Shown: positions 1-17,866 of the stretch, in pieces
Position numbering within the stretch: position 1 is the first letter of the stretch
Layout of the letters: each line of letters begins with the position of its first letter
Program-made: the position numbers and the translations under genes
The notes under the pieces: model-generated
Seen by the model: the letters and a program-made list of their open reading frames with translations, nothing else
What the model was told of the DNA's origin: nothing
Databases searched by the model: none
From: Moheibacter lacus
GTDB lineage: Bacteria; Bacteroidota; Bacteroidia; Flavobacteriales; Weeksellaceae
Assembly (NCBI RefSeq): GCF_014042165.1
Contig: NZ_JACDZE010000001.1
Coordinates: 1 to 64,000, forward strand
Direction: 5' to 3'
DNA length: 64,000 nt

Positions 1-510
1 TATCAAAAGCAGCTTGCTTACGAAAGCCGCTATGTGCAACCAAATGAAAACGGACAGGTTGCCAGCTTTATGCTGAAATACAAAAATGGACATTCTCAAA
101 TCAAAGCGGCTTATTCCAAAGCTTTTGAAACGGGCAGGTATTTATTCCCGAAGGAATTAGGAAGGGATCAGTTTTATACTTCCATGCCCAGAAGTCGTAT
201 GGAAGGACTTGGAGAAATTGATGTCTTTGCCATTGGTTATCAGCACAATTGGAAGCATTTATTTTTGAATATAGATGCTACAACAACTCACGGAGCAGTA
301 ATAAATGATTATGTATTAAACAAATACAATATCGATGATAATTACCAGATCAATACACGATTGCATTATGAATTTTCCAATTTTTTAAAAGGTCTTCATA
401 TCGAGTTGCTGTATGTCTGGAAACAAAACAAAAACGAGCCTAATACAAAATTGGTTGCGCAAAGAAGCGATTACAACCAAATCAATCTAATAACAAATTT
501 TAATTTTTAA
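1..510 (+). CDS. OprD-like outer-membrane porin, C-terminal part (5' end outside window)
   Basis: The reading frame is open from base 1, so only the last 169 residues are seen. The protein alternates short hydrophobic and polar stretches as in transmembrane beta strands and ends in Asn-Phe-Asn-Phe; a terminal aromatic residue is typical of outer-membrane barrels. The segment FPKELGRDQFYTS followed by PRSRMEGLG resembles the C-terminal part of OprD-family porins, which pass small substrates through the outer membrane; this is from memory of the family. It lies 5 bp upstream of a YeeE/YedE-type permease, so the pair could pass a sulfur compound across both membranes, but that is inference. The GTG at 34 is not the start. 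Confidence 0.6.
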   Translation, partial: YQKQLAYESRYVQPNENGQVASFMLKYKNGHSQIKAAYSKAFETGRYLFPKELGRDQFYTSMPRSRMEGLGEIDVFAIGYQHNWKHLFLNIDATTTHGAVINDYVLNKYNIDDNYQINTRLHYEFSNFLKGLHIELLYVWKQNKNEPNTKLVAQRSDYNQINLITNFNF

Positions 511-515
511 AAGCA

Positions 516-929
516 ATGAAAAATATAGTTTACTTACTAATCGGAACATTTTTCGGAATTGTTATGTACAAATCCGAAGCGGCATCCTGGTTCAGAATAT
601 ATGAAATGTTCCAGTTCCAATCCATTCACATGTATGGTTTAATGGGAACTGCTTTAGCAGTAGGAATAATCGTAGTACAATACATCAAAAGAAACAAGGT
701 AAAAGATATTACTGGAAATCCTATTGTTATTGCAGACAAGGATAAAAGTATTCCACGCTATTTAATAGGTGGTATTCTTTTTGGTTTAGGCTGGGCATTG
801 GCGGGTGCATGCCCAGGGCCTATGTTTGTAATGACAGGTGCGGGATATTTCCCAATTTTAGTTGTAATTTTAGGAGCGATATTAGGAACCTGGCTTTACG
901 GTCTGATGAAAGATAAATTGCCTCATTAA
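516..929 (+). CDS. YeeE/YedE-type (DUF6691-like) membrane protein, putative sulfur-compound transporter
   Basis: A 137-residue protein with about four hydrophobic segments (roughly residues 3-18, 38-55, 81-98 and 105-130). The segment GACPGP with Cys99 is the conserved cysteine motif of the YeeE/YedE family, which imports thiosulfate or related sulfur species through cysteine relays. Full YeeE proteins are about twice this length; Bacteroidota often split the family over two adjacent genes. Only the second half-type is visible here, and the partner would be upstream of the window or absent. It is packed between a porin and a Crp/Fnr regulator (5 and 12 bp gaps), so all are probably co-transcribed. 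Substrate is inferred from the family and the sulfur genes downstream. Confidence 0.75.
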   Translation: MKNIVYLLIGTFFGIVMYKSEAASWFRIYEMFQFQSIHMYGLMGTALAVGIIVVQYIKRNKVKDITGNPIVIADKDKSIPRYLIGGILFGLGWALAGACPGPMFVMTGAGYFPILVVILGAILGTWLYGLMKDKLPH

Positions 930-941
930 ATCAAAATAAAT

Positions 942-1571
942 ATGGAAGAATTAATCCGTGACACCTATAGAGGGATATTTGAAAAAGAGCTGATTGAAGA
1001 AATAATTTCAGTTGCGAAGCTGGTCGAATTTAAGGAAGGTGATGTGTTAATCGATATAGGAAAATATATCAAAACCATGCCTTTGCTTATTAGTGGTGCT
1101 ATAAAAATAATGCGTGAGGATTTTGATACAGGTGAACTGTTGCTATACTTCATCGAAAAAGGAGATACTTGCTCTATGACACTTACCTGCTGTATGGGCG
1201 ATAAAAAAAGTGAAATTCGTGCCGTAGCAGAAAACAATGGTTTGGTAGCGATGATTCCCGTAGGGAAAATGGAAGAATGGATGGGTAAATATAAAAGCTG
1301 GCGTGCTTTTGTTTTTGAAAGTTATAATAACCGTTTCAATGAGATGCTCGCAGCCATAGACAATATAGCATTTACCAATATGGATAAGCGACTTTATAAT
1401 TACTTGTTTGAAAAGAGTAAAATAAACGACTCCAATATCATTACCAAAACCCATCAGGAAATTGCTTACGAATTAAACAGTTCCCGTGTAGTAATTTCAC
1501 GATTGCTGAAAGCATTGGAAAATGAAGGAAAAATAAAACTGAACCGTAATAATATAGAGTTATTATCTTAA
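942..1571 (+). CDS. Crp/Fnr family transcriptional regulator
   Basis: A 209-residue protein with an N-terminal cyclic-nucleotide-binding-like beta barrel (about 25-115), a dimerisation helix (about 115-145) and a C-terminal winged helix (about 150-205). The recognition helix reads SRVVISRLLKALE (181-193). Aligned by eye to E. coli Crp and Fnr, the arginine and Ser-Arg contacts are kept, but the key glutamate (Crp Glu181, Fnr Glu209) is Val183, so a different DNA motif is expected. Cys77, Cys83 and Cys84 cluster in the beta-roll region (CSMTLTCC) and could sense thiols, persulfides or a metal. It is the only Crp-type regulator in the window and the natural candidate for binding the six GTAAC-N4-GTTAC sites downstream; that link is inference. 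Confidence 0.9.
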   Translation: MEELIRDTYRGIFEKELIEEIISVAKLVEFKEGDVLIDIGKYIKTMPLLISGAIKIMREDFDTGELLLYFIEKGDTCSMTLTCCMGDKKSEIRAVAENNGLVAMIPVGKMEEWMGKYKSWRAFVFESYNNRFNEMLAAIDNIAFTNMDKRLYNYLFEKSKINDSNIITKTHQEIAYELNSSRVVISRLLKALENEGKIKLNRNNIELLS

Positions 1572-1578
1572 TTGATAA

Positions 1579-1908
1579 ATGGATAAAAAAGAAGTCAATC
1601 AAGTTTCGGTTTCATTCAAAAAAGATCTAATACTTCGGGAGCAATTAGCCATCCAGCGTACATTCCTTGCTAACCAATCTACCTTCTTATCATTTTTAAG
1701 AAGTTCCATGTATTTTTTGGTAGCAGGCTTAAGTGTAAATAAGTTGGTAGCAGGTGAAGAGGCGGTAATTTTTGAGTACATTTTGTTCGTTATATCTGGT
1801 CTTTTACTAATTGTGAGTATTATAAATTATTTCCGAAACCATAAGAAAATCAAACAAAGTGAAATTCATATCGGCGATTATAAGCTGAAATATGAAAAAG
1901 ATAAATAA
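1579..1908 (+). CDS. DUF202 (YidH-like) membrane protein
   Basis: A 109-residue protein. The segment LAIQRTFLAN at residues 23-32 matches the signature of DUF202 proteins, followed by two hydrophobic helices (about 44-60 and 67-85) and a charged C-terminal tail. DUF202 proteins are small inner-membrane proteins of unknown function. It begins 7 bp after the Crp/Fnr gene and is probably the last gene of the porin-permease-regulator operon, because the next gene has its own promoter at 1954-1997. Confidence 0.75.
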   Translation: MDKKEVNQVSVSFKKDLILREQLAIQRTFLANQSTFLSFLRSSMYFLVAGLSVNKLVAGEEAVIFEYILFVISGLLLIVSIINYFRNHKKIKQSEIHIGDYKLKYEKDK

Positions 1909-1953: not shown

Positions 1954-1997
1954 GTAACAATGGTTACTGTACCTATCTCGGTTTCAAGCTAATTTTC
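1954..1997 (+). promoter_or_regulatory. Crp/Fnr-type operator plus -7 box, site A (upstream of DinB gene)
   Basis: The perfect inverted repeat GTAAC-AATG-GTTAC is at 1954-1967 (centre 1960.5). A -7-like box TAATTTTC (consensus TAnnTTTG, last base differs) is at 1990-1997, its first base 29.5 bp from the dyad centre. The start codon follows at 2020. No TTTG -33 element is present at the usual distance; the palindrome's right half takes that place, as in class II activation. Confidence 0.8.
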
Positions 1998-2988: not shown

Positions 2989-3034
2989 CTGTAACTTATG
3001 TTACAGTGTAACTTAATGAGACAAACTACTTTTG
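2989..3034 (+). promoter_or_regulatory. Crp/Fnr-type operator plus -7 box, site B (upstream of tetR-efflux operon)
   Basis: The palindrome CTGTAAC-TTAT-GTTACAG is at 2989-3006, with core GTAAC-N4-GTTAC at 2991-3004 (centre 2997.5). A perfect -7 box TACTTTTG is at 3027-3034, its first base 29.5 bp from the dyad. The TetR start codon is at 3058. An extra half site GTAAC lies just downstream, around 3008-3012. This is the longest of the six palindromes. Confidence 0.85.
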
Positions 3035-3057: not shown

Positions 3058-3639
3058 ATGAATTTGTCTGAAAGACAGCTGGAAATAATAAAGGCATCAG
3101 GTAAAATATTGATGGAAAGCGGCATTGCAGGACTTACAACTAAAAATTTGGCTCGTGAAATGCATTTTTCAGAAAGTGCTTTGTATCGTCATTTCAAAAA
3201 TAAAGAGGCAATCGTAATACTATTAATTGCTTATTTATCAGAAAATATTACCCAGCGTTTTGATGCCATTATCAATACAAAGCAATCACCGGAAGAAAAG
3301 TTTACAACACTTTTTAAAAGTCAGTTTTCGTATTTCAAACAAAATCCGTGTTTCATCAATATTGTTTTATCAGACGGGTTGATTGATAATTCTGATGAGG
3401 TAAAAAATGCCATACAGCAATTATTACAAACCAATTTCATCCGTATCAATTCCCTGATAAAGGAAGGACAAGAGACAGGGGGTTTTAGAACAGTAATAGC
3501 TTCAGAAGAACTCGTGCATATTGTTATGGGAACGTTTCGGCTGCAAATGCTGAAGTGGAAATTGGCTTCTTTTGAATTTGATATTGAGGTTCAGGGACAA
3601 AAAACAATGAATAGCATTTTAGCTTTAATAAAGGTCTAA
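3058..3639 (+). CDS. TetR/AcrR family transcriptional regulator
   Basis: A 193-residue protein with an N-terminal helix-turn-helix (about residues 20-55; segment LTTKNLAREMHFSESALYRHF) followed by an all-helical ligand-binding domain. Such proteins usually repress a neighbouring efflux operon until a ligand binds. It is the first gene of a run that continues as TolC, adaptor, permease and ATPase with gaps of 3-18 bp. It therefore probably autoregulates the operon, on top of the Crp/Fnr-type promoter at 2989-3034. Ligand unknown. Confidence 0.9.
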   Translation: MNLSERQLEIIKASGKILMESGIAGLTTKNLAREMHFSESALYRHFKNKEAIVILLIAYLSENITQRFDAIINTKQSPEEKFTTLFKSQFSYFKQNPCFINIVLSDGLIDNSDEVKNAIQQLLQTNFIRINSLIKEGQETGGFRTVIASEELVHIVMGTFRLQMLKWKLASFEFDIEVQGQKTMNSILALIKV

Positions 3640-3657
3640 TTTATAATATTTTTTTGA

Positions 3658-4983
3658 ATGAGAAAGTTAGTGAATATTCACAAACATAAATTGCTTATAG
3701 TCATCCTTTTCTTGCCTGTTATGGTATGGTCGCAAGAGAAGAAAGAATTTCATACGCTGGACGAAGTACTTGCCTTTGCAAAGGAGAAAAAAGTCAGTTT
3801 CAGGAATGACATCATCCAGCAAAATTTAGCAGAGCTGAACAGAAAAACAGCAGTTGGAAATGCCTTTAATCCGAGAATTCCTGTATCGGCTCAGGTAATT
3901 GATAATATGAATTTGCAAACCAATTATATTCCTGCCGAAGTTTTCGGCGGTTTGCCCGGTTCTTTTCGTGAAATCACAATGGGGTTGCAATATGTCAGTA
4001 CATTCAGCATACAACCGCAGTTCGATATTATTAACCTTGGAAAAATAAGCCGTATAAAACTTGCCAAAACCAATCAGGAACTGGTAGCCAATCAGCAAAA
4101 AATAAACGAATGGACTATTTATGACCAATTGAACGGTATTTACTTTAATATCTTATCGTTTCAGGGACAGCAAAAGATGGTAGAGCAGAATATCGTCATT
4201 GCAAAACAAATTTTAACCATCGTAAACAACAGGTTTGAAGAAGGGATTGTGCGAAAACAAGATGTAAACGAAGCCGAGGTGAACCTCATTCGATTACAGG
4301 ATCAGCTTTCGCAATTGCAATTTAATATCCAAATCCAACAGCAAAATCTTGCTTTGTTTTTCGAGAATGAAGCCAGTCCCATTTTAAATCAAAACATTCG
4401 AGATTTTGATCATAAACAAATATTGACAGAAGCAAAAAACAATTTATGGGTAAACCATTATCAGCTGAGAGAAAAAATGGCAGAACAGGAATGGAAAGCG
4501 GCACAGAAACAACAGTTACCCGTTTTGGGATTTGTATCTTCCTTTAATTGGCAAAACTTGAGTAATGAGTCCTTTTTTCACCCTAATTCCAATTGGATTG
4601 ATTTTAATTACGTTGGTCTTCGTTTGAGTTGGGATTTACCTACTACCGTTTCAAAATATTCGGCGGTAAAAGAGAAAAAAATGCAATGGCAAATGGCCGA
4701 AAATGATCGTATTCATTTTTCGCGTGAGAACGAAACCCGCAACAACAATTTGTTGGTGGAGTACGAAAAAGCATCTTCACAGCTCGAAAACTTTAAGAAA
4801 ATTCAAACCTTGAAAGAAGATACTTATCAGAAATACTTCGATCAATATCAGGAAAATATTCTGCCCTTAGACAAATTACTTACTGCACAAACGGATATGT
4901 TGCTGAGCCAGCTAAATGTTATTACAGCTTTGGCAGGCATTGGATTTAGTGAAAATAAAATTATCATCAATAATAAGTTTTAG
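3658..4983 (+). CDS. TolC family outer-membrane efflux protein
   Basis: A 441-residue protein with an N-terminal signal peptide (hydrophobic residues about 11-24, ending VWSQ). Two long helical repeats are seen, with segments such as LTIVNNRFEEGIVRKQDVNEAEVNL and a second copy near residues 385-425, typical of TolC/OEP channels. It would supply the outer-membrane duct of a tripartite pump with the adaptor and FtsX-like ABC transporter encoded next (4 bp gap). Length fits the family. Confidence 0.9.
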   Translation: MRKLVNIHKHKLLIVILFLPVMVWSQEKKEFHTLDEVLAFAKEKKVSFRNDIIQQNLAELNRKTAVGNAFNPRIPVSAQVIDNMNLQTNYIPAEVFGGLPGSFREITMGLQYVSTFSIQPQFDIINLGKISRIKLAKTNQELVANQQKINEWTIYDQLNGIYFNILSFQGQQKMVEQNIVIAKQILTIVNNRFEEGIVRKQDVNEAEVNLIRLQDQLSQLQFNIQIQQQNLALFFENEASPILNQNIRDFDHKQILTEAKNNLWVNHYQLREKMAEQEWKAAQKQQLPVLGFVSSFNWQNLSNESFFHPNSNWIDFNYVGLRLSWDLPTTVSKYSAVKEKKMQWQMAENDRIHFSRENETRNNNLLVEYEKASSQLENFKKIQTLKEDTYQKYFDQYQENILPLDKLLTAQTDMLLSQLNVITALAGIGFSENKIIINNKF

Positions 4984-4987
4984 ACGT

Positions 4988-6079
4988 ATGAAAATAAAGT
5001 TGTTCGTTACCATTGTACTGTTTGTTACACTACAATCCTGTGGTTCAAAGGAAGAAGCACAGCCGGTGGTAAAAGATATAAAAGAATTAGTTTTTGCATC
5101 GGGAATGCTCGATTGGGATGATGCCTATCATCTGACGGCACAAACAGATGGCATATTGACCGAAGCTAATTTTGAGGTAGGAGACAAAATGAATACAGGA
5201 AAGATCATTGCGATTATCGACAATCCGTCTAACCGTATCAATACGCATTCGGCAGAGGAACAATTAACCATTGCCAACGAAAACCTAACGGAAAATTCGC
5301 CTGCCATTCAGCAACTGGAACAAAACATTCGCTATGCAGAAAGCAAATACGAGCAAGACAAACAACAAGCTGAACGTTATGAACGACTGTTCCAAAAGCA
5401 AAGTGTAGCCAAGGTAGAATTTGAAAATATGCAACTGGCAGCAAAAAATTCACTGGCACAGCTGAATGCCTTAAAAAAGCAAAAAGCAGAACTATTGCAA
5501 CGTGCCAAATCACAGCAGATTTCTAACAAAAATCAGCTACAAAACAGCAAAGTGATAGAACGATACAATCAATTGATAATACCTCAAAGTGGTACGATTG
5601 TCAACAAGCTGAAATCAACAGGAGATTATGTCAAAAAAGGAGATATTGTTGCTACAATTGCTGATGATAGCAAGCCGGAAGTGGTATTGAATGTAGATGA
5701 AAAAAGCATCGGAAAAGTAAAATTGGGACAATTGGTTTATATCCAGTTCAACACAGATAAAAGCAACGTGTACGAAGGCAAAATCAGTGAAATAGTGGCT
5801 GCATTTGATGAAAAAACACAATCATTTGTTGTAAAAGTGTTGCTGAATGAAGCACCTTCAAGTAGTATTTACGGCACACAGTTGGAAGCCAATATTTTGA
5901 CAAGCGAAAAGAAGAATGCTTTATTAATTCCGAGAAGTTATTTGGGCTTTGGAAATAAGGTAAAACTAAAAGGAAAAGACGACCCCGTTGTTGTAAAAAC
6001 AGGTATTATTTCTACCGAATATGTAGAAATATTGGAAGGAATCAGTAAAGATGATATTCTGGAACATATAAAACCTTAG
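4988..6079 (+). CDS. HlyD/RND-type periplasmic adaptor lipoprotein
   Basis: A 363-residue membrane-fusion protein. The ATG at 4988 gives a lipoprotein signal peptide with lipobox LQSC and lipidated Cys18; the in-frame start at 4916 lies inside tolC and is rejected. A half lipoyl domain (about 45-90), a long coiled-coil hairpin rich in Gln, Glu and Lys (about 95-185), the second lipoyl half and beta-barrel domains follow. It would bridge the inner-membrane ABC transporter and the TolC channel. Gaps to neighbours are 4 bp each. Confidence 0.88.
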   Translation: MKIKLFVTIVLFVTLQSCGSKEEAQPVVKDIKELVFASGMLDWDDAYHLTAQTDGILTEANFEVGDKMNTGKIIAIIDNPSNRINTHSAEEQLTIANENLTENSPAIQQLEQNIRYAESKYEQDKQQAERYERLFQKQSVAKVEFENMQLAAKNSLAQLNALKKQKAELLQRAKSQQISNKNQLQNSKVIERYNQLIIPQSGTIVNKLKSTGDYVKKGDIVATIADDSKPEVVLNVDEKSIGKVKLGQLVYIQFNTDKSNVYEGKISEIVAAFDEKTQSFVVKVLLNEAPSSSIYGTQLEANILTSEKKNALLIPRSYLGFGNKVKLKGKDDPVVVKTGIISTEYVEILEGISKDDILEHIKP

Positions 6080-6083
6080 GCTA

Positions 6084-7307
6084 ATGAATATTAATACAGA
6101 CATAGCCAGAACCTATCTGTTTTCGGGCAAAAAAATGACTGCTGTAGCCGTTCTTGGTGTGTTGCTCGGAATGTCGATCTATATTTTCATGAACAGTTTA
6201 CTGGTTGGTTTTGATAAAACATCTGACGAAAATATTTTCAAAAATACGCCACATATTCGGTTGTTTAATGATGATGTCATCAGCAAAAATCTGGTAAGTG
6301 ATACTGCTGCCGAATACCTGATTTCTAATCCGAAAGTAGTACCCAAAGTCAATACTATCATTAACCCGAACGGAATTGCAGAAATGGTACAACAACAGAA
6401 GGAAGTAACTGTGGTAACAGCCCAGGTCAACACAAGTGTGTTTTATAATAACGGAAGAACTCAGGTAAGTGGATTAATCATCGGGATAAAGCCAGATGAA
6501 GCAGATATGATGTACAGCATTACTTCATCAATGGTTGAAGGTAAATTTGAAACCCTGAAATCCGACCCGAACGGCATCGTAATCGGTATAGGAATAGCAG
6601 AAAAAATGAACTTGGCACTTGGTGATAACATCAATCTTACATCACAAAAAGGTGTAACTAAGAACCTGCGTGTAGCAGGTATTTTTCGATCATTTAATTC
6701 AACTGCCGACGACACCAAATCGTACGTTAATCTATACACCGCTCAGCAATTGCTCAAAGAAAACAATGTGTATGTAACAGACATCAGTGTCAATGTAAAA
6801 GATCCGCACCAGGCGGCAGCCGTTGCCGAAAAGTTATCTCAATTAACCGGATACAAATCCGAAGATTGGAAAGAGAGTAACGAATCGCTGATGGCACTCA
6901 GCAAAATGCGGTTCATTATGATCAATTTTGTCTCTACAGCCATTATGCTCATTGCCGGTTTTGGCATTTACAATATCCTGAACATGACCGTTTCCCAAAA
7001 AATAAATGACATTGCCATATTAAAGGCTATTGGTTTTAAAGGGAATGACGTGATACGGATTTTTGTAACGCAGGCATTATCTATTGGGTTGATCGGTGTA
7101 GTTGGCGGAATGTTGATGGCATTGCTAATGATTACCTTGTTGAAAAAGGTTTACATCGGTGGTGACATCGGATACTTTCCTGTAGATTATGAACTGCAGA
7201 AATTCATTCAGGGAATTGTTATGGGCTTAGTGATTACATTTTTTGCAGGATACATTCCTGCCCGTAAAGCAGCAAAAGTAGATCCGGTCAGCATTTTTAG
7301 AAAGTAA
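6084..7307 (+). CDS. ABC transporter permease, MacB/FtsX type
   Basis: A 407-residue protein with one N-terminal membrane helix (about 18-36), a large periplasmic domain (about 40-275) and three C-terminal helices (about 280-305, 325-355 and 373-395). The end, YIPARKAAKVDPVSIFRK, matches the FtsX/MacB C-terminal signature. It is the inner-membrane part of a MacAB-TolC-like pump, with the ATPase as a separate gene 3 bp downstream. Such pumps export lipids, peptides or hydrophobic drugs; the substrate here is not evident. Confidence 0.88.
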   Translation: MNINTDIARTYLFSGKKMTAVAVLGVLLGMSIYIFMNSLLVGFDKTSDENIFKNTPHIRLFNDDVISKNLVSDTAAEYLISNPKVVPKVNTIINPNGIAEMVQQQKEVTVVTAQVNTSVFYNNGRTQVSGLIIGIKPDEADMMYSITSSMVEGKFETLKSDPNGIVIGIGIAEKMNLALGDNINLTSQKGVTKNLRVAGIFRSFNSTADDTKSYVNLYTAQQLLKENNVYVTDISVNVKDPHQAAAVAEKLSQLTGYKSEDWKESNESLMALSKMRFIMINFVSTAIMLIAGFGIYNILNMTVSQKINDIAILKAIGFKGNDVIRIFVTQALSIGLIGVVGGMLMALLMITLLKKVYIGGDIGYFPVDYELQKFIQGIVMGLVITFFAGYIPARKAAKVDPVSIFRK

Positions 7308-7310
7308 ATC

Positions 7311-8003
7311 ATGGATAAGAATATCGTTTTAAAAACAGAAAATATCGACAAGTATTTTTATGACCCGGTAGAATTTCAGGTGTTGAAAAATATTGGTTTT
7401 GAGGTAGAGAGAGGAGAATTCTTAACACTTGTCGGGAAGTCAGGGAGTGGCAAATCTACTTTGCTCTATATCCTCTCCACTATGGACAGAGACTACAATG
7501 GAAATTTAGTGATAGATAATGAATTAATTACCGGAAAATCGGTTGATGAACTGGCTGCGATCCGAAACGAAAAAATAGGTTTTGTATTCCAGTTTCATTA
7601 CCTGCTGTCAGAATTTACCTGTCTGAAAAATGTTATGATTCCTGCACTGAAATTGGGTAGGTTTTCCCCAAAAGAAATAGAAGAACGGGCTTATGAAAAG
7701 TTAAAAATGCTGGGTATGGAAGATCAGGCTCTCAAACCTGCGAATAAACTTTCGGGTGGACAGCAACAACGTGTTGCCATTGCCAGAGCGTTAATTAATG
7801 ATCCTTTGATTATTATGGGTGATGAGCCAACAGGTAATTTGGACAGTAAAAATACAGACATTGTTTTTGATATTTTCAAAGACCTGACCCACAGTTTCGG
7901 ACAAACCATTATCGCTGTAACCCACGATGATGAATTTGCTCAAAAAAGTGACCGAACCATAGAAATGAAAGACGGCTACATCATTGGCGGACATAAAAAT
8001 TAA
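7311..8003 (+). CDS. ABC transporter ATP-binding protein (LolD/MacB type)
   Basis: A 230-residue ATPase. Walker A GKSGSGKST is at residues 42-50, the signature LSGGQQQR at 147-154, Walker B LIIMGDE at about 166-172, and the H-loop is in AVTHDD. The segment MGDEPTGNLDS is characteristic of the LolD/MacB/FtsE subgroup, which pairs with FtsX-like permeases such as the one encoded just upstream. It powers the tripartite efflux system. Confidence 0.92.
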   Translation: MDKNIVLKTENIDKYFYDPVEFQVLKNIGFEVERGEFLTLVGKSGSGKSTLLYILSTMDRDYNGNLVIDNELITGKSVDELAAIRNEKIGFVFQFHYLLSEFTCLKNVMIPALKLGRFSPKEIEERAYEKLKMLGMEDQALKPANKLSGGQQQRVAIARALINDPLIIMGDEPTGNLDSKNTDIVFDIFKDLTHSFGQTIIAVTHDDEFAQKSDRTIEMKDGYIIGGHKN

Positions 8004-8712: not shown

Positions 8713-8756
8713 GTAACCTATGTTACTTTCTGCCCAAACTGTAAGTGCTAATTTTG
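8713..8756 (+). promoter_or_regulatory. Crp/Fnr-type operator plus -7 box, site C (upstream of exported persulfide dioxygenase)
   Basis: GTAAC-CTAT-GTTAC is at 8713-8726 (centre 8719.5). A perfect -7 box TAATTTTG is at 8749-8756, 29.5 bp from the dyad. The start codon is at 8836, so the leader is about 75 nt and contains another palindrome (8782-8795). Confidence 0.85.
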
Positions 8757-8835: not shown

Positions 8836-10302
8836 ATGAAATCCATCTTCTTAAAAAATAATTTTCTTTGGTTATTAGCCATTTTCTTCTTATCGAATTC
8901 CTCATTTGCACAAACTCTTTTCTTTGAACGTGTTTATGACGAAACATTATCACAGGCAAGTTATGTGATCGGCGATACAGAAACCAAAGAAGCGATTGTC
9001 ATCGACCCTAAAAGAGATATCGACACTTATCTGCAAATAGCTCAGACAAACAATCTGAAAATAACGAAAATTACCGAAACTCATATTCACGCAGACTTTC
9101 TCAGTGGTTCGAGAGAACTCGCAGCAGTTACGAAAGCACCGCTGTATTTATCTGACGAAGGCGGCAGAGACTGGCAATACGATTTTCCACACACCGGACT
9201 GAAAAATGGCGATAAAATTTCGGTTGGAAGTATTACGATAGAAGTCATTCACACACCGGGACATACGCCCGAAAGCCTGACTTTTTTGGTTAACGACGGC
9301 ACAAAAAATCCAATCAAAGCCATTACCGGAGATTTTATTTTTGTAGGCGATGTCGGCCGTCCTGATTTATTGGAAAAAGCAGCAGGACAAATTGGTTCGC
9401 AGGAAGTTGGAGCAAAACAACTCTATCATTCTATTGAAAAATTTTTGAAATTACTCGATAACACCGAAATCTGGCCGGGACATGGAGCAGGTTCTTTCTG
9501 TGGGAAAAGTTTGAGCAATATTCCGCAATCTACTTTGAAACAAGAAAAATTGACCAATCCGGCTTTGCAATTTTCGGGAAAAGAAACCGATTTTGTAGCC
9601 TATATTTTGAGTGAGCAACCCGCTCCGCCAAAATATTTTGCGATGATGAAACATCTGAACAAAGTAGATCGTACGCTATTGGTTGAAGTTCCGAAATTGG
9701 CTAAACTCAATCAAAAAGAAACAGAAAATGCGATTAAAAATGGTTTACTCGTAATAGATGCCCGTCCAAAAGCAGTTTCAGGTAAAGGATTTATTCCTGG
9801 GAGTCTTCTGATTGAAAATATGAAAACATTTTCTACGTTTGTCGGTTCGGTTGTTGATTATCAAAACCAGATTATTTTGGTTGCCGAAGAAAATCAAATC
9901 GAAGATTTGACCCGAAAACTAATGCGTATCGGGATGGACAATATCTATGGGTACGTTACCAATCCGTCTGAACAAAATTTGGCTTTGCAAAATGTAAAAA
10001 CCATTGATATAGATACTTTCAAATCATATTTGGGAAACAAAAACATTCAGAAAATTGACGTTCGTACCGAAAACGAATACAAAAGCGGTCATATCAAAGG
10101 TGTTGAAAATATAGCACTGAATACACTTGAAAACAATTTTGATAAAATCAATAAAAAAGAACCTGTCATCATCCATTGCCAAAGCGGAACAAGAGCGGCA
10201 ATTGCTTATTCTATTCTTGTGAAAAACGGTTTTGAAAACATTCTGAATTATTCCGGTGGAATTAATGATTGGAAAGATAAAAACAACGAACTTGTGAAGT
10301 AA
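8836..10302 (+). CDS. Exported persulfide dioxygenase-like MBL-fold protein fused to two rhodanese domains
   Basis: A 488-residue protein with a cleavable signal peptide (hydrophobic residues 10-24, FAQ at 24-26), so it acts in the periplasm. The metallo-beta-lactamase domain (about 28-245) carries ETHE1-type iron ligands: His83, His85, Asp87, His143, the GDVGRPD region and His216. A first rhodanese domain (about 300-380) lacks the active cysteine; the second (about 395-485) has Cys448 in CQSGTR. ETHE1-type enzymes oxidise glutathione or other persulfides to sulfite, and rhodanese domains pass sulfane sulfur. It is a close paralogue of the signal-less protein encoded at 15811-17193. A PaaI-like thioesterase follows. 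Confidence 0.88.
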   Translation: MKSIFLKNNFLWLLAIFFLSNSSFAQTLFFERVYDETLSQASYVIGDTETKEAIVIDPKRDIDTYLQIAQTNNLKITKITETHIHADFLSGSRELAAVTKAPLYLSDEGGRDWQYDFPHTGLKNGDKISVGSITIEVIHTPGHTPESLTFLVNDGTKNPIKAITGDFIFVGDVGRPDLLEKAAGQIGSQEVGAKQLYHSIEKFLKLLDNTEIWPGHGAGSFCGKSLSNIPQSTLKQEKLTNPALQFSGKETDFVAYILSEQPAPPKYFAMMKHLNKVDRTLLVEVPKLAKLNQKETENAIKNGLLVIDARPKAVSGKGFIPGSLLIENMKTFSTFVGSVVDYQNQIILVAEENQIEDLTRKLMRIGMDNIYGYVTNPSEQNLALQNVKTIDIDTFKSYLGNKNIQKIDVRTENEYKSGHIKGVENIALNTLENNFDKINKKEPVIIHCQSGTRAAIAYSILVKNGFENILNYSGGINDWKDKNNELVK

Positions 10303-10322
10303 TTTCAAATTCTCAAACAAGA

Positions 10323-10790
10323 ATGCATCATAAAAGAAAAGCAATCCAAGATTTGTATCCCGATGAACTGGCACATTGCTATGGATGTGGAAAAAATAAT
10401 CCAGATGGTCATCAATTAAAAACATATTTAATGGGAGATGAAACAATCGCCCATTTTACACCAGACGAAAAATTTACAGCAATTCCTGGAAGTGTTTACG
10501 GTGGTTTAGTAGCTTCCTTATTAGATTGCCACGGAACTGGTTCGGCTGCGGCTTTTGCTTGTCTGGCAGAAAATATTGATCTTGAAAATGTAGCAATTAT
10601 TCCCATAAGATGTGTAACAGCATCGCTTAAAGTTGATTTTAAAGTACCTACACCAATGGGTAAAAAGCTGGAGCTAAAAGGAAAACTCCGAAGTATCGAG
10701 GGCAGAAAAATCTTGGTAGATATGACACTTTCTGCTGAAGGAATTGTTTGTGCGACAGGAGAAATTTTAGCGATAAAACTCAAAGACTAA
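10323..10790 (+). CDS. PaaI-like hot-dog thioesterase family protein
   Basis: A 155-residue protein with the hot-dog fold pattern: FTAIPGSVYGGLVASLLDCHGTGSA corresponds to the usual HGG-containing helix, here YGG. An N-terminal segment CYGCGKNNPDGHQLK is common in this subgroup. Members hydrolyse acyl-CoA or other acyl thioesters. It starts 20 bp after the exported MBL gene and probably shares its promoter. The last five codons form one arm of the terminator shared with cydB. Confidence 0.8.
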   Translation: MHHKRKAIQDLYPDELAHCYGCGKNNPDGHQLKTYLMGDETIAHFTPDEKFTAIPGSVYGGLVASLLDCHGTGSAAAFACLAENIDLENVAIIPIRCVTASLKVDFKVPTPMGKKLELKGKLRSIEGRKILVDMTLSAEGIVCATGEILAIKLKD

Positions 10791-10817
10791 GTTAAATGCT
10801 TAGTCTTTGAGTTTTTT
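10775..10817. terminator. Bidirectional terminator between convergent thioesterase and cydB
   Basis: A perfect 17-bp stem, AAAACTCAAAGACTAAG (10775-10791) with its complement at 10799-10815 and a 7-nt loop, is flanked by A and T runs, so it can end transcription from both sides. It includes the last codons and stop of the thioesterase gene and touches the cydB stop codon at 10816. Confidence 0.9.
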
Positions 10818-11898
10818 AATGCTCTCCGTAACCTACATCATCCATTTTACCTTTAAAAACTCTGAACTGAATGATGAAATATGCAATCACTAAAATAGCC
10901 GCAATAATAAACCAATACAATCCTACTGACAATCCATATTCATGAGCTGCCACATTATGTACAGTTAATGAAGGATTAATTCCATTTGTAGATGGCAATA
11001 GTGTCGGAAACAAAGAAGCTATAGTAGTAGCAAAACTCCCAAAAATAAACATAGAAGAAAATAAAAATCCGGTGCTGTCCTTTTTAAATTTGTTAATTCT
11101 GAACAACCCGATTAGACCTACTGCACCAATTATCGGGAATATCCAAAGCCAATAATGCGTTTGCAGATTATTTAAAGGAAAGGGTTTTACATAATGCCAT
11201 AAACCAGCGGAAATGACGACTAATGCCAACAGTACGAAATTTAGTTTAAAAATCACTTTTTTAAGCCGCCCGTTGAGTGATGTAGATGTTTTCAAAATAA
11301 TCCAATTGGCCCCGTGAATGGTTAACGTTACAACAGCAACAAGTCCCAATAACAAGGTAAACCAGTCAATAACCCCCTGATGCTCTGCAAGTGGGTCAAA
11401 TGTAGGATTCCAAAGTGCTAAAAAGAAATAATGAGGTTCCTGTGTAGAGACACCATTTTCCACCATCCCGAGATTTACGCCTCTTACTACATTACCTAAA
11501 GCGGCTCCAAAAAACAACGCTAACAGAAGACTGGCTATACCAAATGCTTTATCCCAAATAGCTTCCCACATTCTGTGATGTACTTGTCCCCGCAATTCCA
11601 GCCCTACAGCTCTGAAAATCAACAACCATAAAACCAGCATCAAGGGCAGATAAAAACCACTAAAGGCCGATGCATATAGCGTAGGAAATGCAAAGAATAA
11701 AACACCACCAGCCGCAATCAGCCACACTTCATTAGCATCCCAGAAAGGACCGATAGCATTGGTTACGGCTTTTTTTTCTTGCTCAGTCTTAGCCAAAAAT
11801 AAATGTACAATTCCGGCTCCGAAATCATACCCATCGAGGATAACGTAAATCCCCAACATAACCATTAATACAATAAACCAAAATATTTCCATAACCAT
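10816..11898 (-). CDS. cydB: Cytochrome bd ubiquinol oxidase subunit II
   Basis: A 360-residue membrane protein with about nine helices. The start WFIVLMVMLGIYVILDGYDFGAGIVHLF and the segment GPFWDANEVWLIAAGGVLFFAFP are hallmarks of CydB. With CydA it forms the high-affinity quinol oxidase of the inner membrane. Bd oxidases resist inhibition by sulfide and nitric oxide, which fits the surrounding sulfur genes. It begins directly after the cydA stop codon. No CydX-like small subunit is evident. Confidence 0.95.
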   Translation of the reverse strand: MVMEIFWFIVLMVMLGIYVILDGYDFGAGIVHLFLAKTEQEKKAVTNAIGPFWDANEVWLIAAGGVLFFAFPTLYASAFSGFYLPLMLVLWLLIFRAVGLELRGQVHHRMWEAIWDKAFGIASLLLALFFGAALGNVVRGVNLGMVENGVSTQEPHYFFLALWNPTFDPLAEHQGVIDWFTLLLGLVAVVTLTIHGANWIILKTSTSLNGRLKKVIFKLNFVLLALVVISAGLWHYVKPFPLNNLQTHYWLWIFPIIGAVGLIGLFRINKFKKDSTGFLFSSMFIFGSFATTIASLFPTLLPSTNGINPSLTVHNVAAHEYGLSVGLYWFIIAAILVIAYFIIQFRVFKGKMDDVGYGEH

Positions 11899-13236
11899 TT
11901 ATTTTAATGCCATTTTAGCTTCAGGACCTTTCCGTATAATTTTTAAAACAAGTAAAAGAAAAAGCAGTCCAAGAAGCAAATACAGTCCAACAAAACCCAA
12001 AAGTGTAAATAATGCATTTCCCGAAGATACGGTAGGCGAAACGCCATCAACCATACGCATCAGATTGTAAACCAACCAAGGCTGTCTGCCCAGTTCCGCT
12101 GTGTACCATCCTGCCGTATTGGCGATATAAGGAAACGGAATCATAAACATCAGAATCCACAACAGCCATTTTGTTTTATACAATTTGCCTTTCCAGAGTA
12201 AAAACGATGCAAGTACCATAATACCAATGAAAATAGTTCCCAAACCAACCATAATATGATAACCATAATACAAACCGGGGACATTGGTAGGATGTATGGA
12301 TTCATCAAATTCATTCAAACCTTTAATTTCAGCATCCCAACGCTGATACGTAAGAAAACTAAGTACATTGGGTACAGCGATTTTATTGTCCAGTTTTTTG
12401 TTTTCCATATCGGGCTGACCCACCAAAACAATCTCAGACCCTCCTTTTTCAGTTTCAAAAATACCTTCCATCGCAGCAAATGTTACTGGTTGGTATTTGA
12501 CGACATTTTTAGCTGCCCAATCACCTGTAGGAAAAGCTAACATGACAGAAGAAATTACCCCGAAAACGACTCCGCTCTTTACAAAAATCTTCCCAAAGCG
12601 ACTATGCTTATTACTCAATAAATAGAAAGCTCCAACGGCTGCCACAAAAAAAGAACTCGTTACTAACGAACCCATTTGATTATGTAGATATGAAGGCCAC
12701 AGCCAAGGATTATTGAATAGAGCACCAAAATTTTTCAATATAAATTTTCCGTTCTCCAAAATTTCGTAACCGACAGGATGTTGCATCCAAGAGTGTGTAG
12801 CGATAATCAAAAAACCACTTGCCCACGAACCAATGAAGACCATCAGTCCTGATAAAAAGTGTAGTTTCTGTCCAAGTAGCTTTTCACCAAAAAGAAACAT
12901 GCCCAGAAAAGAAGATTCTAAAAAGAAGGAGAACATTCCTTCCATTGCTAACGTTTGTCCGATGATACCTCCGGTAAGCTCAGAGAACTTAGCCCAATTG
13001 GTGCCGAACTGAAATTCCATTGGAATACCCGTTACAACACCCATTGCGAAGTTCAATGCAAATATCTTCATCCAGAATTTTGATGCATTATTGTAATCTT
13101 CATTTTTAGTTCTGAGAAATTTCCATTTAAAATAAACAATCATTAAGGAAAGTCCCATAGTGAGCTGAGGGAACAAATAATGAAAGGTAATCGTAAAGGC
13201 AAACTGTAGCCGATTGTAAAGGATCATGTCTTCCAT
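11899..13236 (-). CDS. cydA: Cytochrome bd ubiquinol oxidase subunit I
   Basis: A 445-residue protein with about nine membrane helices. RLQFAFTITFHYLFPQLTMG includes His19, a heme ligand, and GWYTAELGRQPW is the conserved CydA motif. The length is that of the short-Q-loop type. It carries hemes b558, b595 and d with CydB and reduces oxygen with quinol electrons without pumping protons. It is transcribed leftwards from a GTAAC-N4-GTTAC module, divergent from the TauE gene, which has its own copy of the module. Confidence 0.95.
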   Translation of the reverse strand: MEDMILYNRLQFAFTITFHYLFPQLTMGLSLMIVYFKWKFLRTKNEDYNNASKFWMKIFALNFAMGVVTGIPMEFQFGTNWAKFSELTGGIIGQTLAMEGMFSFFLESSFLGMFLFGEKLLGQKLHFLSGLMVFIGSWASGFLIIATHSWMQHPVGYEILENGKFILKNFGALFNNPWLWPSYLHNQMGSLVTSSFFVAAVGAFYLLSNKHSRFGKIFVKSGVVFGVISSVMLAFPTGDWAAKNVVKYQPVTFAAMEGIFETEKGGSEIVLVGQPDMENKKLDNKIAVPNVLSFLTYQRWDAEIKGLNEFDESIHPTNVPGLYYGYHIMVGLGTIFIGIMVLASFLLWKGKLYKTKWLLWILMFMIPFPYIANTAGWYTAELGRQPWLVYNLMRMVDGVSPTVSSGNALFTLLGFVGLYLLLGLLFLLLVLKIIRKGPEAKMALK

Positions 13237-13304: not shown

Positions 13305-13349
13305 TAAATGTATTTATAAATTACAAAAACGATTGTAACACTTGTTACA
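13305..13349 (-). promoter_or_regulatory. Crp/Fnr-type operator plus -7 box, site D (cydAB promoter)
   Basis: The palindrome TGTAAC-N4-GTTACA is at 13334-13349 (core 13335-13348, centre 13341.5). Reading leftwards, TACATTTA at 13312-13305 (consensus TAnnTTTG, last base differs) begins 29.5 bp from the dyad. The cydA start codon ends at 13236. Confidence 0.78.
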
Positions 13350-13401: not shown

Positions 13402-13445
13402 GTAACAATTGTTACTGCCTGCGTTATCGTGGTATTCTAATTTTG
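13402..13445 (+). promoter_or_regulatory. Crp/Fnr-type operator plus -7 box, site E (TauE/SafE promoter)
   Basis: GTAAC-AATT-GTTAC, a fully self-complementary 14-mer, is at 13402-13415 (centre 13408.5). A perfect -7 box TAATTTTG is at 13438-13445, 29.5 bp from the dyad. The start codon is at 13469. It sits 67 bp from the cydAB operator, back to back. Confidence 0.87.
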
Positions 13446-13468: not shown

Positions 13469-14272
13469 ATGGCGACAGATCTTATAGGCTATTTATTGGC
13501 CGTTTTAGTAGGTGTTTCATTAGGACTTATTGGTAGCGGAGGTTCCATACTTACCGTTCCTATTTTGGTGTATGTCATGGGCGTTAACCCCATATTAGCG
13601 ACAGCGTATTCCTTATTTGTAGTGGGTACTACATCCTTGGTAGGTGGCGTTCAAAACGCCATTCAGAAAAAAGTAGATTTCAAAACCGTACTTATTTTTG
13701 GTATTCCGTCTATTGTTGCTGTGTATTTGACCAGAGCTTATCTGATGCCTTTAATTCCTGATGTGATTATCTCTATCGGAAGCTTTGAATTTACCAAACC
13801 TATCGCCTTGATGGTGCTTTTTGCCATCGTAATGATTTTTGCTTCCATATCGATGATACGTCCTTGTCCGCATTGCAATGATGTAGACACCGGTGAAATA
13901 AAATATAACTATCCGATGATTCTTCTGGAAGGAGCATTAGTTGGTACACTAACCGGATTGGTAGGTGCAGGCGGTGGATTTTTAATTATTCCCGCATTGG
14001 TTCTATTAGCAAAAATGCCGATGAAGTTAGCTGTAGGGACTTCCTTGTTTATCATCGCAGCAAAGTCACTCTTGGGATTCACAGGTGATTTGCAAGGTAG
14101 CGAAACAATTGACTGGACTTTGCTATCCATCTTTACCGGATTATCTGTTGTCGGAATTTTTATCGGGATTTTTCTGTCTAAAAAAATAGAAGGCAATAAA
14201 CTTAAAGCCGCATTCGGCTGGTTTGTACTCGTAATGGGAATCTATATCCTCATCAAGGAATTATTCTTATAA
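13469..14272 (+). CDS. TauE/SafE family sulfite or sulfonate exporter-like permease
   Basis: A 267-residue protein with about eight membrane helices in two homologous halves: GVSLGLIGSGGSILTVPIL near residues 15-33 and GTLTGLVGAGGGFLIIPAL near 154-172 are the repeated TauE/SafE signature. A cytoplasmic loop PCPHCNDVDTG (about 131-141) has a CxxC pair. Family members export sulfite, sulfoacetate or related anions. In this setting it would remove sulfite made by the neighbouring persulfide dioxygenases, which is inference. It has its own promoter module and no gene directly downstream before another module. Confidence 0.87.
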   Translation: MATDLIGYLLAVLVGVSLGLIGSGGSILTVPILVYVMGVNPILATAYSLFVVGTTSLVGGVQNAIQKKVDFKTVLIFGIPSIVAVYLTRAYLMPLIPDVIISIGSFEFTKPIALMVLFAIVMIFASISMIRPCPHCNDVDTGEIKYNYPMILLEGALVGTLTGLVGAGGGFLIIPALVLLAKMPMKLAVGTSLFIIAAKSLLGFTGDLQGSETIDWTLLSIFTGLSVVGIFIGIFLSKKIEGNKLKAAFGWFVLVMGIYILIKELFL

Positions 14273-14284
14273 AAAAACAGTCTT

Positions 14285-14328
14285 GTAACTTATGTTACTG
14301 AACAGGTTATAAGCAGGTTGTAATTTTG
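14285..14328 (+). promoter_or_regulatory. Crp/Fnr-type operator plus -7 box, site F (persulfide dioxygenase operon)
   Basis: GTAAC-TTAT-GTTAC is at 14285-14298 (centre 14291.5), only 13 bp after the TauE stop. A perfect -7 box TAATTTTG is at 14321-14328, 29.5 bp from the dyad. The start codon is at 14366. Confidence 0.87.
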
Positions 14329-14365: not shown

Positions 14366-15784
14366 ATGAAAGTAGAACAAATTTATACAGGATGTTTGGC
14401 TCAAGGAGCTTATTATATTGAAAGTAATGGAGAAGCTGTGGTAATAGATCCGCTTCGTGAAGTCCAACCTTATATCGAAAAAGCGGAAAAAGACGGGGCT
14501 AAAATTAAATATGTATTGGAAACGCATTTTCACGCTGATTTTGTGAGTGGTCATTTGGATTTGGCTAAAAAAACCGGTGCAACGATTGTTTTTGGTCCCA
14601 CTGCAAAACCATCATTTGACGCATATGTTGCTGAGGATGGTGAAATTTTACAAGTTGGAAATATCCAAATCAAAGTCATACACACACCGGGTCATACGAT
14701 GGAGAGTACTTGCTTTTTATTAATTGATGAAAGCGGAAAAGAAACTGCTTTGTTTACCGGTGATACCTTATTCATCGGCGATGTGGGTCGTCCAGATTTG
14801 GCACAAAAAGTGATTGCAGATCTGACACAGGAAAAATTAGCGGCTCATTTGTACGATTCATTGCACAACAAAATCATTCCGTTAGCAGATGATATCATTG
14901 TCTATCCAGCACACGGAGCAGGTTCGGCTTGTGGTAAGAACATGAGCAAGGAAACGACCGATACCTTGGGCAACCAAAAGAAAACCAACTATGCTTTACA
15001 ATCAATGACCAAAGAAAAATTCATCGAAGAAGTGTTAGATGGCTTAATGCCACCTCCTGGATATTTTCCAGAAAACGTGCTGATGAACATCAAAGGTTAC
15101 GAAAGTATTGATGAAGTATTGAACAAAGGAACGCAAGCTTTAAGTCCTGAAGCATTTGAAACTGCTGCCAACGAAACTGACGCATTGTTGCTGGATACTC
15201 GTGATGCACAAACCTTTGCTAAAGGATTTATTCCAAATTCAATCAATATCGGTATTGATGGAAACTTTGCACCGTGGGTAGGTACACTCATTCCGGATAT
15301 CAAACAAACCATTTTATTGATTGCAGACGAAGGTCGTGAGGAAGAAGTCGTTACCAGATTGGCTCGAGTTGGTTACGACAATACTATTGGTTATCTGAAA
15401 GGTGGATTTGAAGCCTGGAAAAATGCCGGCAAAGAAACCGACACCATCGAATCTGTTTCGGTAGATGAACTGGCAAAACGAATGGAAGAAAATCCAAACC
15501 TGGACATTCTGGATGTACGCAAAAAGAGCGAACATTTTTCAGAACACGCAATCGGTTCAAAAAACATCGCTTTGGATTATATCAACGAACATATAGCTGA
15601 AGTGAATAAAGACAAAACCTATTACGTACACTGTGCCGGTGGTTACCGTTCAATGATTTTCAACTCTATTCTTAGAGCCAGAGGATATAACAAACTTATC
15701 GACGTTCAAGGCGGATTTACGGCAATCAAAGAATCGGGAAAATTCAAGGTAAGCGATTACGTTTGTCCAACAACTATGCTTTAA
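14366..15784 (+). CDS. Cytosolic persulfide dioxygenase-like MBL-fold protein with two rhodanese domains (type 2)
   Basis: A 472-residue protein without signal peptide. MBL-domain ligands are His54, His56, Asp58, His110 and His183, with TGDTLFIGDVGRPD. The first rhodanese domain (about 265-355) has no active cysteine (ADEGRE); the second (about 365-455) has Cys423 in CAGGYRS. It differs clearly from the other two fusions in the window, for example HFHADF instead of HIHADF, so it is a separate lineage. It probably oxidises persulfides to sulfite in the cytosol. First gene of an operon with the next MBL gene (26 bp gap) and a peroxiredoxin. Confidence 0.88.
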   Translation: MKVEQIYTGCLAQGAYYIESNGEAVVIDPLREVQPYIEKAEKDGAKIKYVLETHFHADFVSGHLDLAKKTGATIVFGPTAKPSFDAYVAEDGEILQVGNIQIKVIHTPGHTMESTCFLLIDESGKETALFTGDTLFIGDVGRPDLAQKVIADLTQEKLAAHLYDSLHNKIIPLADDIIVYPAHGAGSACGKNMSKETTDTLGNQKKTNYALQSMTKEKFIEEVLDGLMPPPGYFPENVLMNIKGYESIDEVLNKGTQALSPEAFETAANETDALLLDTRDAQTFAKGFIPNSINIGIDGNFAPWVGTLIPDIKQTILLIADEGREEEVVTRLARVGYDNTIGYLKGGFEAWKNAGKETDTIESVSVDELAKRMEENPNLDILDVRKKSEHFSEHAIGSKNIALDYINEHIAEVNKDKTYYVHCAGGYRSMIFNSILRARGYNKLIDVQGGFTAIKESGKFKVSDYVCPTTML

Positions 15785-15810
15785 TTAATAACATTAAAAT
15801 CTAAAAAAAT

Positions 15811-17218: not shown

Positions 17219-17866
17219 ATGGAAAATCAAATAAATACAATGCCAAGAATTGGCGATATGGCACCCGATTTTGAAGCAGTAACTACTACAGGAGTAATCA
17301 AATTTTCGGAATACAACAAAGGAAGCTGGGTGATTTTATTTTCTCATCCTGCCGATTTCACACCGGTTTGTACAACAGAAATGACGGGCTTTGCCAACGA
17401 AAGCGATTTCTTCGAAAAGCACAATACCAAATTGATGGGGTTAAGCATAGACAGCATTCATTCACACATCGCATGGGTAAATGCCGTTGACGAAAAGACA
17501 GGTGTATTGTTCAACTTCCCGATTATTGCAGATTTGGATATGAAAGTAGCCAAATTGTACGGAATGTTGCAACCGGGCGAAAGCGAAACTGCAGCTGTCC
17601 GTGCCGTATTCATCATGGATCCGGCAGGAAAAATCCGTTTGATTATGTATTATCCTTTGAATGTAGGTCGTAATATGGATGAAATTAAACGTTCTTTATT
17701 GGCACTTCAAACATCCGATGAATACAAAGTAGCTATGCCACTCAACTGGCAACCGGGCGACAAAGTAATCGTAGGAGCACCAAAAACATTGGAAGGATTA
17801 AAAGAACGTAAAGCCGATACAACTTTAGAGCAAGTGGATTGGTATCTGGCTAAAAAATCAATTTAA
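17219..17866 (+). CDS. 1-Cys peroxiredoxin (Prx6-like)
   Basis: A 215-residue protein. Cys51 in the motif PVCTTEM is the peroxidatic cysteine; the segment HPADFTPVC and the GRNMDEIKRSLLALQ region match the Prx6 group. No second cysteine is present, so an external thiol must reduce it. It removes peroxides, and some Prx6 enzymes also react with persulfide species. It is likely the third gene of the operon that starts at 14366. Confidence 0.92.
   Translation: MENQINTMPRIGDMAPDFEAVTTTGVIKFSEYNKGSWVILFSHPADFTPVCTTEMTGFANESDFFEKHNTKLMGLSIDSIHSHIAWVNAVDEKTGVLFNFPIIADLDMKVAKLYGMLQPGESETAAVRAVFIMDPAGKIRLIMYYPLNVGRNMDEIKRSLLALQTSDEYKVAMPLNWQPGDKVIVGAPKTLEGLKERKADTTLEQVDWYLAKKSI

Follow-up and report, generated by a model that had tools for sequence, protein, structure and literature searches.

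The Crp/Fnr-family regulator encoded near the start of the 64,000-nucleotide stretch of Moheibacter lacus DNA analyzed here (the window) is proposed to activate a sulfide and reactive-sulfur regulon in the Bacteroidota, to read GTAAC half-sites and to respond to sulfane sulfur. Taken as a whole, this proposal is considered likely, and the part of it which concerns the DNA site and the regulon is held with greater confidence; that the protein turns on genes for sulfide and reactive-sulfur handling in a large bacterial group is very probable. What emerges from the analysis is a gene together with its precise DNA site and promoter position, a list of targets and a specificity switch that depends on one residue and occurs naturally, all of them open to direct testing; the pattern of site plus promoter box has enough specificity for candidate targets to be listed in many further genomes.

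While the Crp/Fnr architecture and GTA-type reading by a valine are already known, no description of the regulon, of the cysteine cassette or of the natural Val/Glu switch seems to exist as far as the open-access literature searched shows. Searches of that literature, some of which probably missed the slash spelling "Crp/Fnr" and which did not extend to most subscription journals, gave no paper whose title or abstract described the regulator or its site, nor did they return any characterized Bacteroidota regulator for genes of sulfide or reactive-sulfur handling.

The regulator and its operon

The regulator reading frame (Table 1) is open throughout and specifies 209 amino acids, in which the cNMP_binding (PF00027) and HTH_Crp_2 (PF13545) domains both score above the Pfam gathering thresholds; with its beta roll and Crp-type helix-turn-helix, the protein belongs to the Crp/Fnr superfamily. 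Its closest PDB sequence match is 3dv8, followed by NtcA and CRP, and the AlphaFold model (mean pLDDT 85) aligns with the CRP mutant structure 4i0b over 192 residues (Z 17.8, 3.6 Å). The recognition helix reads N-S-S-R182-V183-V184-I185-S186-R187-L-L-K. Because HMMER alignments pair its SRVVISR segment with SRETVGR of CRP (and with TRVTVTR of NtcA), Val183 occupies the place of the CRP helix glutamate, thus bearing out the claim of the initial annotation that valine stands where Crp and Fnr carry Glu. Arg182 and Arg187 align with the two helix arginines of CRP. The same annotation had described Arg182 and Ser186-Arg187 as retained, and had singled out Cys77, Cys83 and Cys84; all are present, the protein has no other cysteine, and the three helix residues and three cysteines are invariant in alignment A1, which comprises the window protein, its second copy and 24 relatives (26 sequences). 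Five further loci among those of the 30 best class matches and the second copy, namely L029, L030, L033, L035 and L038, stand outside A1, and two of them, the Val-type relatives L029 and L030, lack one or both of Cys83/84.

In CRP, the cAMP phosphate is bound by Glu72 and Arg82. The segment which carries Cys77, Cys83 and Cys84 aligns with these phosphate contacts, and the places of Glu72 and Arg82 are held by Met79 and Lys89 in the regulator. Identity with the cAMP receptor was, therefore, dropped, the phosphate-binding residues having been replaced; the PRK11753 score is 48.6 against a cut-off of 266. Identity with FNR, an oxygen sensor with an N-terminal cysteine cluster for a [4Fe-4S] center, was likewise rejected, as the only cysteines are at positions 77, 83 and 84 and residue 183 is Val rather than Glu. 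In the model, Cys83 and Cys84 fall within the least confident block (pLDDT 63), and the block containing Cys77 reaches 75.

The window contig begins inside the regulator operon, and the product of the truncated leading gene has no Pfam match. The counterpart of this gene is longer in a second copy of the operon in the same genome (L009, G000:C7:1-20000; 10296-11566 and 11568-12122), whose DNA is approximately 93% identical to window positions 1-555 and 629-1899. The second copy encodes an SQR-like protein, a YeeE protein, an outer-membrane-protein-like product, a further YeeE protein (its gene interrupted by a one-base N gap) and a regulator which is 96% identical to that of the window. The start of the contig inside a repeated operon looks like an assembly break at the repeat. 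The SQR-like gene heading the second copy matches the NCBIfam type III SQR selenoprotein-subtype model with an E value of 9.6e-68, below the cut-off of that model. The initial annotation had placed a sulfur permease next to the regulator at the head of the block: the adjacency stands (Table 1), but the permease gene is probably not the true head, because the second copy begins with the SQR-like gene.

Table 1. Features of the regulator operon and of the palindrome-associated putative promoters in the window
Feature	Position	Strand	Spacer (nt)	Downstream box (position)	Assignment or genes faced
3' part of a gene in the regulator's block, cut by the contig start	34-510	+			outer-membrane protein (by eye)
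YeeE/YedE-type sulfur transporter half	516-929	+			directly 5' of regulator; Pfam Sulf_transp/DUF6691
Crp/Fnr-family regulator, 209 aa, Val183, Cys77/83/84	942-1571	+			ORF, Pfam and alignment
DUF202 membrane protein	1579-1908	+			directly 3' of regulator; Pfam
Palindrome GTAACAATGGTTAC	1954-1967	+	22	-7-like, TAATTTTC (1990-1997)	DinB/CMD genes, 2020-2930
Palindrome GTAACTTATGTTAC	2991-3004	+	22	-7, TACTTTTG (3027-3034)	TetR and exporter genes, 3058-8003
Palindrome GTAACCTATGTTAC	8713-8726	+	22	-7, TAATTTTG (8749-8756)	metallo-beta-lactamase/rhodanese gene, 8836-10302
cydB; cydA	10816-11898; 11899-13236	-			cytochrome bd oxidase; probable target
Palindrome GTAACAAGTGTTAC	13335-13348	-	22	-7-like, TACATTTA (13305-13312)	cydAB, 10816-13236 (minus strand)
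Palindrome GTAACAATTGTTAC	13402-13415	+	22	-7, TAATTTTG (13438-13445)	TauE/SafE gene, 13469-14272
Palindrome GTAACTTATGTTAC	14285-14298	+	22	-7, TAATTTTG (14321-14328)	metallo-beta-lactamase/rhodanese genes, 14366-17193; peroxiredoxin, 17219-17866

GTAAC palindromes and promoter geometry

The six palindromes mentioned in the initial annotation are real: the window contains six exact copies of GTAACN4GTTAC against 0.01 ± 0.10 in shuffled sequences, and a chance origin was rejected on this basis. The bare palindrome alone proves little, because its count in the whole 2.77-Mb genome (11 exact copies) is hardly above that of the reversed control (9). The unusual feature is the clustering of six sites within 12.4 kb together with their promoter geometry, and these carry the argument. 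Seven of the 11 genomic sites are promoter-like and four lie inside ORFs; the latter are four of the five non-window sites, the fifth being located 5' of the SQR-like gene which heads the second operon copy. This seventh promoter-like site (C7:14929) lies within the longest mechanically called SQR-like ORF, upstream of its likely start. A genome-wide scatter of regulatory sites with no tie to the cluster was thus rejected, the four remaining exact sites being inside ORFs.

At all seven promoter-like sites, a TAnnTTTG-like box begins exactly 22 nt downstream, with no mismatch in four cases and one mismatch in three; when two mismatches were allowed genome-wide, the boxed pattern gave 10 matches, the same number as the control. 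In the transcription start site map of Flavobacterium psychrophilum, the TAnnTTTG box is located at -12 to -5 (PMC9723704), and a 22-nt spacer would, therefore, center the sites at -41.5, the position of a class II activator. Where the spacer was left free between 12 and 32 nt in 198 class genomes, 47 of 87 matches fell at 22 nt and 12 at 23 nt, compared to 58 reversed-control matches (hand count) over all 21 spacers together. A wrong-spacer reading was tested through such 12-32 nt histograms, and through control spacers of 19 and 26 nt in the base-3 scan described below, and was rejected. The eight matches with a 15-nt spacer all repeat a single sequence and all come from genome G115, where they are distributed over eight contigs, several of them near contig ends; this repeated palindrome may possibly belong to a mobile element. 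As a separate observation, at 2991-3012 the window palindrome before the TetR-exporter operon shares sequence with another inverted arrangement, GTTACAGTGTAAC, possibly a TetR operator which overlaps the activator site.

Occurrence of the palindrome among relatives

The initial annotation had proposed looking for the same palindromes beside homologues with similar gene sets. Across 80 named loci (retained from a larger number of candidates in a scan whose peptide pattern admitted no residue but V or E at position 183), GTAAC was the most frequent of the 1024 N4 palindromes, occurring 138 times where its other permutations averaged 1.4. Pairing the palindrome with an exact TAnnTTTG at 12 to 32 nt gave 72 cases, and in 69 the distance was 22 nt. 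As regards spread on plasmids, relatives were present in only four records of a plasmid collection, all at less than 60% identity; two are annotated as "Crp/Fnr family transcriptional regulator," one as "transcriptional regulator, Crp/Fnr family," and one is unannotated.

Conserved palindromes in relatives lacking the regulator had been named as an outcome that would speak against the assignment. The exact pattern of site, 22-nt spacer and box occurs in 64 of 395 class genomes (97 matches by hand count versus five for the reversed control), and is present in 56 of the 230 genomes with a close regulator (a match at E ≤ 1e-30) versus 8 of the 165 without one, where the control rate predicts approximately two. 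The adverse outcome was thus mostly not observed, although the palindrome is not exclusive to the regulator. A profile search of the eight boxed genomes without a close regulator recovered a regulator fragment, situated where a contig ends, in one genome and a distant relative in another, with no regulator in the remaining six. Sites were inspected in five of these eight genomes (the others being G206, G096 and G181) and, with genes named by eye, one was situated before an SQR-like gene, one before hcp, two before ferredoxin genes and one without an assigned gene. Two such sites (in G277 and G359) adjoin Crp/Fnr genes with the proline-containing helix RPSLSR, and a site with a 23-nt spacer in G032 adjoins one with the helix RPSLAR; these genes are by our own reading HcpR-like. 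Part of the excess among the 165 genomes thus belongs to other Crp/Fnr genes, and the palindrome is probably common to a second, non-Glu subfamily and so not exclusive to the regulator described here.

Residue 183 and the third base of the half-site

Among 157 regulators (160 loci were fetched, of which L097, L103 and L206 gave no regulator ORF), residue 183 is Val in 111 and Glu in 46. Within 6 kb, 73 of the 111 Val loci have an exact GTAACN4GTTAC palindrome and 38 do not, and 1 of the 46 Glu loci has one. In the Glu loci, the GTGAC palindrome takes second place at a distance of up to 6 kb (six loci) and first place at up to 1.5 kb (4 versus 0.03 expected); it is also found within 6 kb in 7 of the 111 Val loci. 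A scan in which base 3 of both half-sites was left free at a spacer of 22 nt returned, without mismatch, 97 sites in Val loci (75 A/A, 9 with any G) and nine in Glu loci (all with G, none A/A). Allowing one mismatch raised these numbers to 177 (142 A/A, 17 with any G) and 24 (again all with G and none A/A), and allowing two raised them to 239 (176 A/A) and 46 (2 A/A). Control spacers of 19 and 26 nt yielded between zero and nine sites at up to one mismatch, and the addition of a 23-nt spacer introduced a single A/A site in the Glu locus L211. The two sets of loci resemble each other at positions 1, 2 and 4 of the half-site; position 3 is A in 311 of 354 cases in Val loci and G in 31 of 48 in Glu loci, and position 5 also shifts from C to T in the Glu loci (24/68). 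The class-sampled subset alone (36 Val, 43 Glu) agrees, with A 41, T 7 and G 4 for Val and G 26 and A 12 for Glu.

The Glu relatives L089, L092 and L094 are close to Val relatives, L089 being 75 to 78% identical to four of them. All three have mixed A/G sites directly 3' of the regulator, as do L089 and L094 before an SQR-like gene (by eye). The sites of these loci and those of the Val loci are not strictly orthologous, because the gene after the regulator differs, being methyltransferase-like (by eye) in the three Glu loci and, L078 excepted, TauE-like in the Val loci compared (six of seven). On a FastTree tree built with column 183 removed, six changes at residue 183 are needed. The tree-based pair count accounts for relatedness, which Fisher tests ignore, and its site list, unlike that of the base-3 scan and of the comparison by half-site position, was restricted to A or G at base 3; it identified four independent V/E pairs on supported branches, of which a mean of 3.6 agree and none are opposed when any G is scored (sign test, p 0.125), or 3.2 of 4 agree when all sites are required to carry G (p 0.25), too few pairs for significance. 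Independent switches behind the co-variation of residue 183 with base 3 are few, about four, among the relatives examined. It is supported by computation that Val183 goes with A at base 3 (GTAAC) and Glu183 with G (GTGAC) or with mixed sites, and the clustering of the sites, their promoter geometry and this co-variation support the earlier prediction of a motif other than TGTGA or TTGAT that fits GTAAC.

Predicted targets, cysteines and signal

A downstream ORF could be assigned to 206 of 243 sites (37 had none), and these ORFs were grouped by single-linkage clustering, with Pfam applied to example members. The largest groups were metallo-beta-lactamase/rhodanese (75), TauE (33), SQR-like (13) and DUF983 (10) proteins, followed by 1-Cys peroxiredoxin (9), TolC-like proteins (8), the regulator itself (8), YeeE (5), sterol-desaturase-like (5), SulP-like (4) and DUF3365-like (4) proteins, CydA (4, of which two are window sites), OsmC (3, in Glu loci) and molybdenum oxidoreductase (2); the TolC-, SulP-, sterol-desaturase- and DUF3365-like groups were named by eye. 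A sulfur marker lies within 6 kb in 82 of the 111 Val loci (none in 29) and in 22 of the 46 Glu loci. Two of the six window sites face non-sulfur genes, namely the DinB/CMD and TetR-exporter genes.

Across the 157 regulators, Cys77 is present in all, Cys83 in 153 and Cys84 in 141. One relative, L190, lacks Cys83 and Cys84 and has a boxed site before a metallo-beta-lactamase/rhodanese gene, a likely target; outside the 157, the Val-type relative L029 retains Cys77 only and L030 lacks Cys83. These losses argue against a strict need for all three cysteines. Sulfane sulfur (persulfide or polysulfide) is favored as the signal on account of the placement and conservation of the cysteines, the predicted targets and the YeeE-type neighbor, although this assignment is tentative; cysteine conservation and gene content plausibly favor sulfide or sulfane sulfur over nitric oxide or peroxide. 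The sequence tests used do not distinguish a persulfide switch from a disulfide, a metal site or an Fe-S site. In 3dv8, an uncharacterized Crp/Fnr protein of Eubacterium rectale, a Cys-x5-Cys pair occupies the places of Cys77 and Cys83, and the cysteine pair may, therefore, be older than the Bacteroidota.

With sites, spacing, sulfur-gene association, co-variation and cysteine conservation computed directly, we infer a dimeric state, DNA binding, activation, a signal and its chemistry as follows. The regulator would act as a dimeric Crp/Fnr-type activator of sulfide and reactive-sulfur genes in the Bacteroidota and is predicted to bind GTAACN4GTTAC at -41.5, in the class II arrangement, at promoters with the Bacteroidota -7 box. 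Residue 183 would set base 3 of the half-site, Val specifying A and Glu specifying G or a mixture. Sulfane sulfur is envisaged to react with Cys77 jointly with Cys83/84, at the place taken in CRP by the phosphate of cAMP, and thereby to cause activation. Genes for SQR-like and metallo-beta-lactamase/rhodanese proteins, the TauE exporter, the YeeE transporter and peroxiredoxin would consequently be switched on, as would those for cytochrome bd, an oxidase which tolerates sulfide, in the M. lacus genome. A broader formulation, advanced more tentatively still, is that of a Bacteroidota-wide class II activator in which the cAMP phosphate cassette was rebuilt into a Cys-x5-Cys-Cys sensor of sulfane sulfur, which controls sulfide oxidation along with a sulfide-tolerant oxidase and which has switched several times between GTAAC and GTGAC via Val/Glu183.

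Alternative explanations

It is unlikely that the protein is instead a redox or oxygen/peroxide switch, in which the cysteines would pair in a disulfide or coordinate a metal or an Fe-S cluster, with the sulfur genes as one component of a response to oxidative or microaerobic conditions. The predicted targets do include cytochrome bd and peroxiredoxin, and CprK, a Crp/Fnr member, is inactivated by a disulfide (PMC2610375). The commonest targets are, however, sulfur enzymes and exporters (75 + 33 + 13 of 206), and inspection by eye of the 18 downstream clusters with at least two members revealed no catalase- or superoxide-dismutase-like protein. A repressor at the palindromes, rather than an activator, is quite improbable: SoxR, a sulfane-sulfur regulator of another family, does repress (PMC10451225), yet one would expect the position of a repressor site to vary, and here the distance to the -7 box is fixed and the -41.5 center is an activator position, as for NtcA (PMC3898017).

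Two other readings concern the ownership and meaning of the sites. A nitric-oxide or nitrosative regulator resembling HcpR, with the sulfur genes incidental, has a similarly small probability. In genomes without a close regulator, the boxed palindrome lies before hcp (L044) and ferredoxin genes (L046 and L048), as named by eye, but the Crp/Fnr genes of those genomes, two of them beside a site, carry the RPSLSR or RPSLAR helix, and the genes downstream of sites of the present regulator family are mostly sulfur genes. That another regulator owns the palindromes, the window gene being a bystander, is highly improbable. The second Crp/Fnr subfamily does seem to own similar sites in other genomes, and the M. 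lacus genome contains one further Crp-type helix-turn-helix gene, C1:559838; against this, it is, apart from the two regulator copies, the only one over the Pfam cut-off, it has Glu in its recognition helix (ATESAIR), and the palindrome accompanies Val-type relatives far more often than Glu-type ones (73/111 versus 1/46 within 6 kb).

Comparison with known systems

The proposed activator of reactive-sulfur genes shares features with several characterized regulators. NtcA, a cyanobacterial nitrogen regulator of the Crp/Fnr family which responds to 2-oxoglutarate and reads GTAN8TAC at about -41.5 (PMC3898017), has Val at the matching position of the recognition helix by alignment; GTAACN4GTTAC falls within its site pattern, and both sites lie at about -41.5. 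It differs in that the aligned NtcA stretch is without cysteine, and the regulator scores 28.7 against an NtcA equivalog cut-off of 244.95. CprK, the halorespiration regulator, likewise combines Val in place of Glu with an N4 palindrome, its Val-192 being equivalent to Glu-209 of FNR and linked to the pyrimidine at the corresponding position, where dehaloboxes have T and FNR sites have C (PMC2610375); its half-site is TTAAT (dehalobox TTAAT-N4-ATTAA) rather than the GTAAC enriched here, and its effector is a chlorophenol (PMC2610375). CprK and NtcA are precedents for the proposed reading by Val183.

HcpR is a Crp/Fnr regulator found in the Bacteroidota, that of Porphyromonas gingivalis being a heme-based sensor of nitric oxide (PMC12750200); the HcpR-like genes beside the same boxed palindrome encode RPSLSR or RPSLAR, as opposed to the RVVISR of the regulator. 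The structure 3dv8, titled only a putative regulator, is its best PDB sequence match and has cysteines aligned to Cys77 and Cys83, but it carries a Glu-type helix (HREVITR) and no cysteine at place 84. In Hyphomicrobium denitrificans, SoxR is a cysteine-based sulfane-sulfur repressor of sulfur-oxidation genes (PMC10451225), and the YeeE-like SoxT1B of Hyphomicrobium serves as a signal-transduction unit for a cysteine-based sulfane-sulfur repressor (PMC11582611). The SoxR/SoxT1B system thus resembles the one described here in its pairing of a YeeE-like membrane protein with sulfur genes, and differs in that SoxR is an ArsR-type repressor from an alphaproteobacterium.
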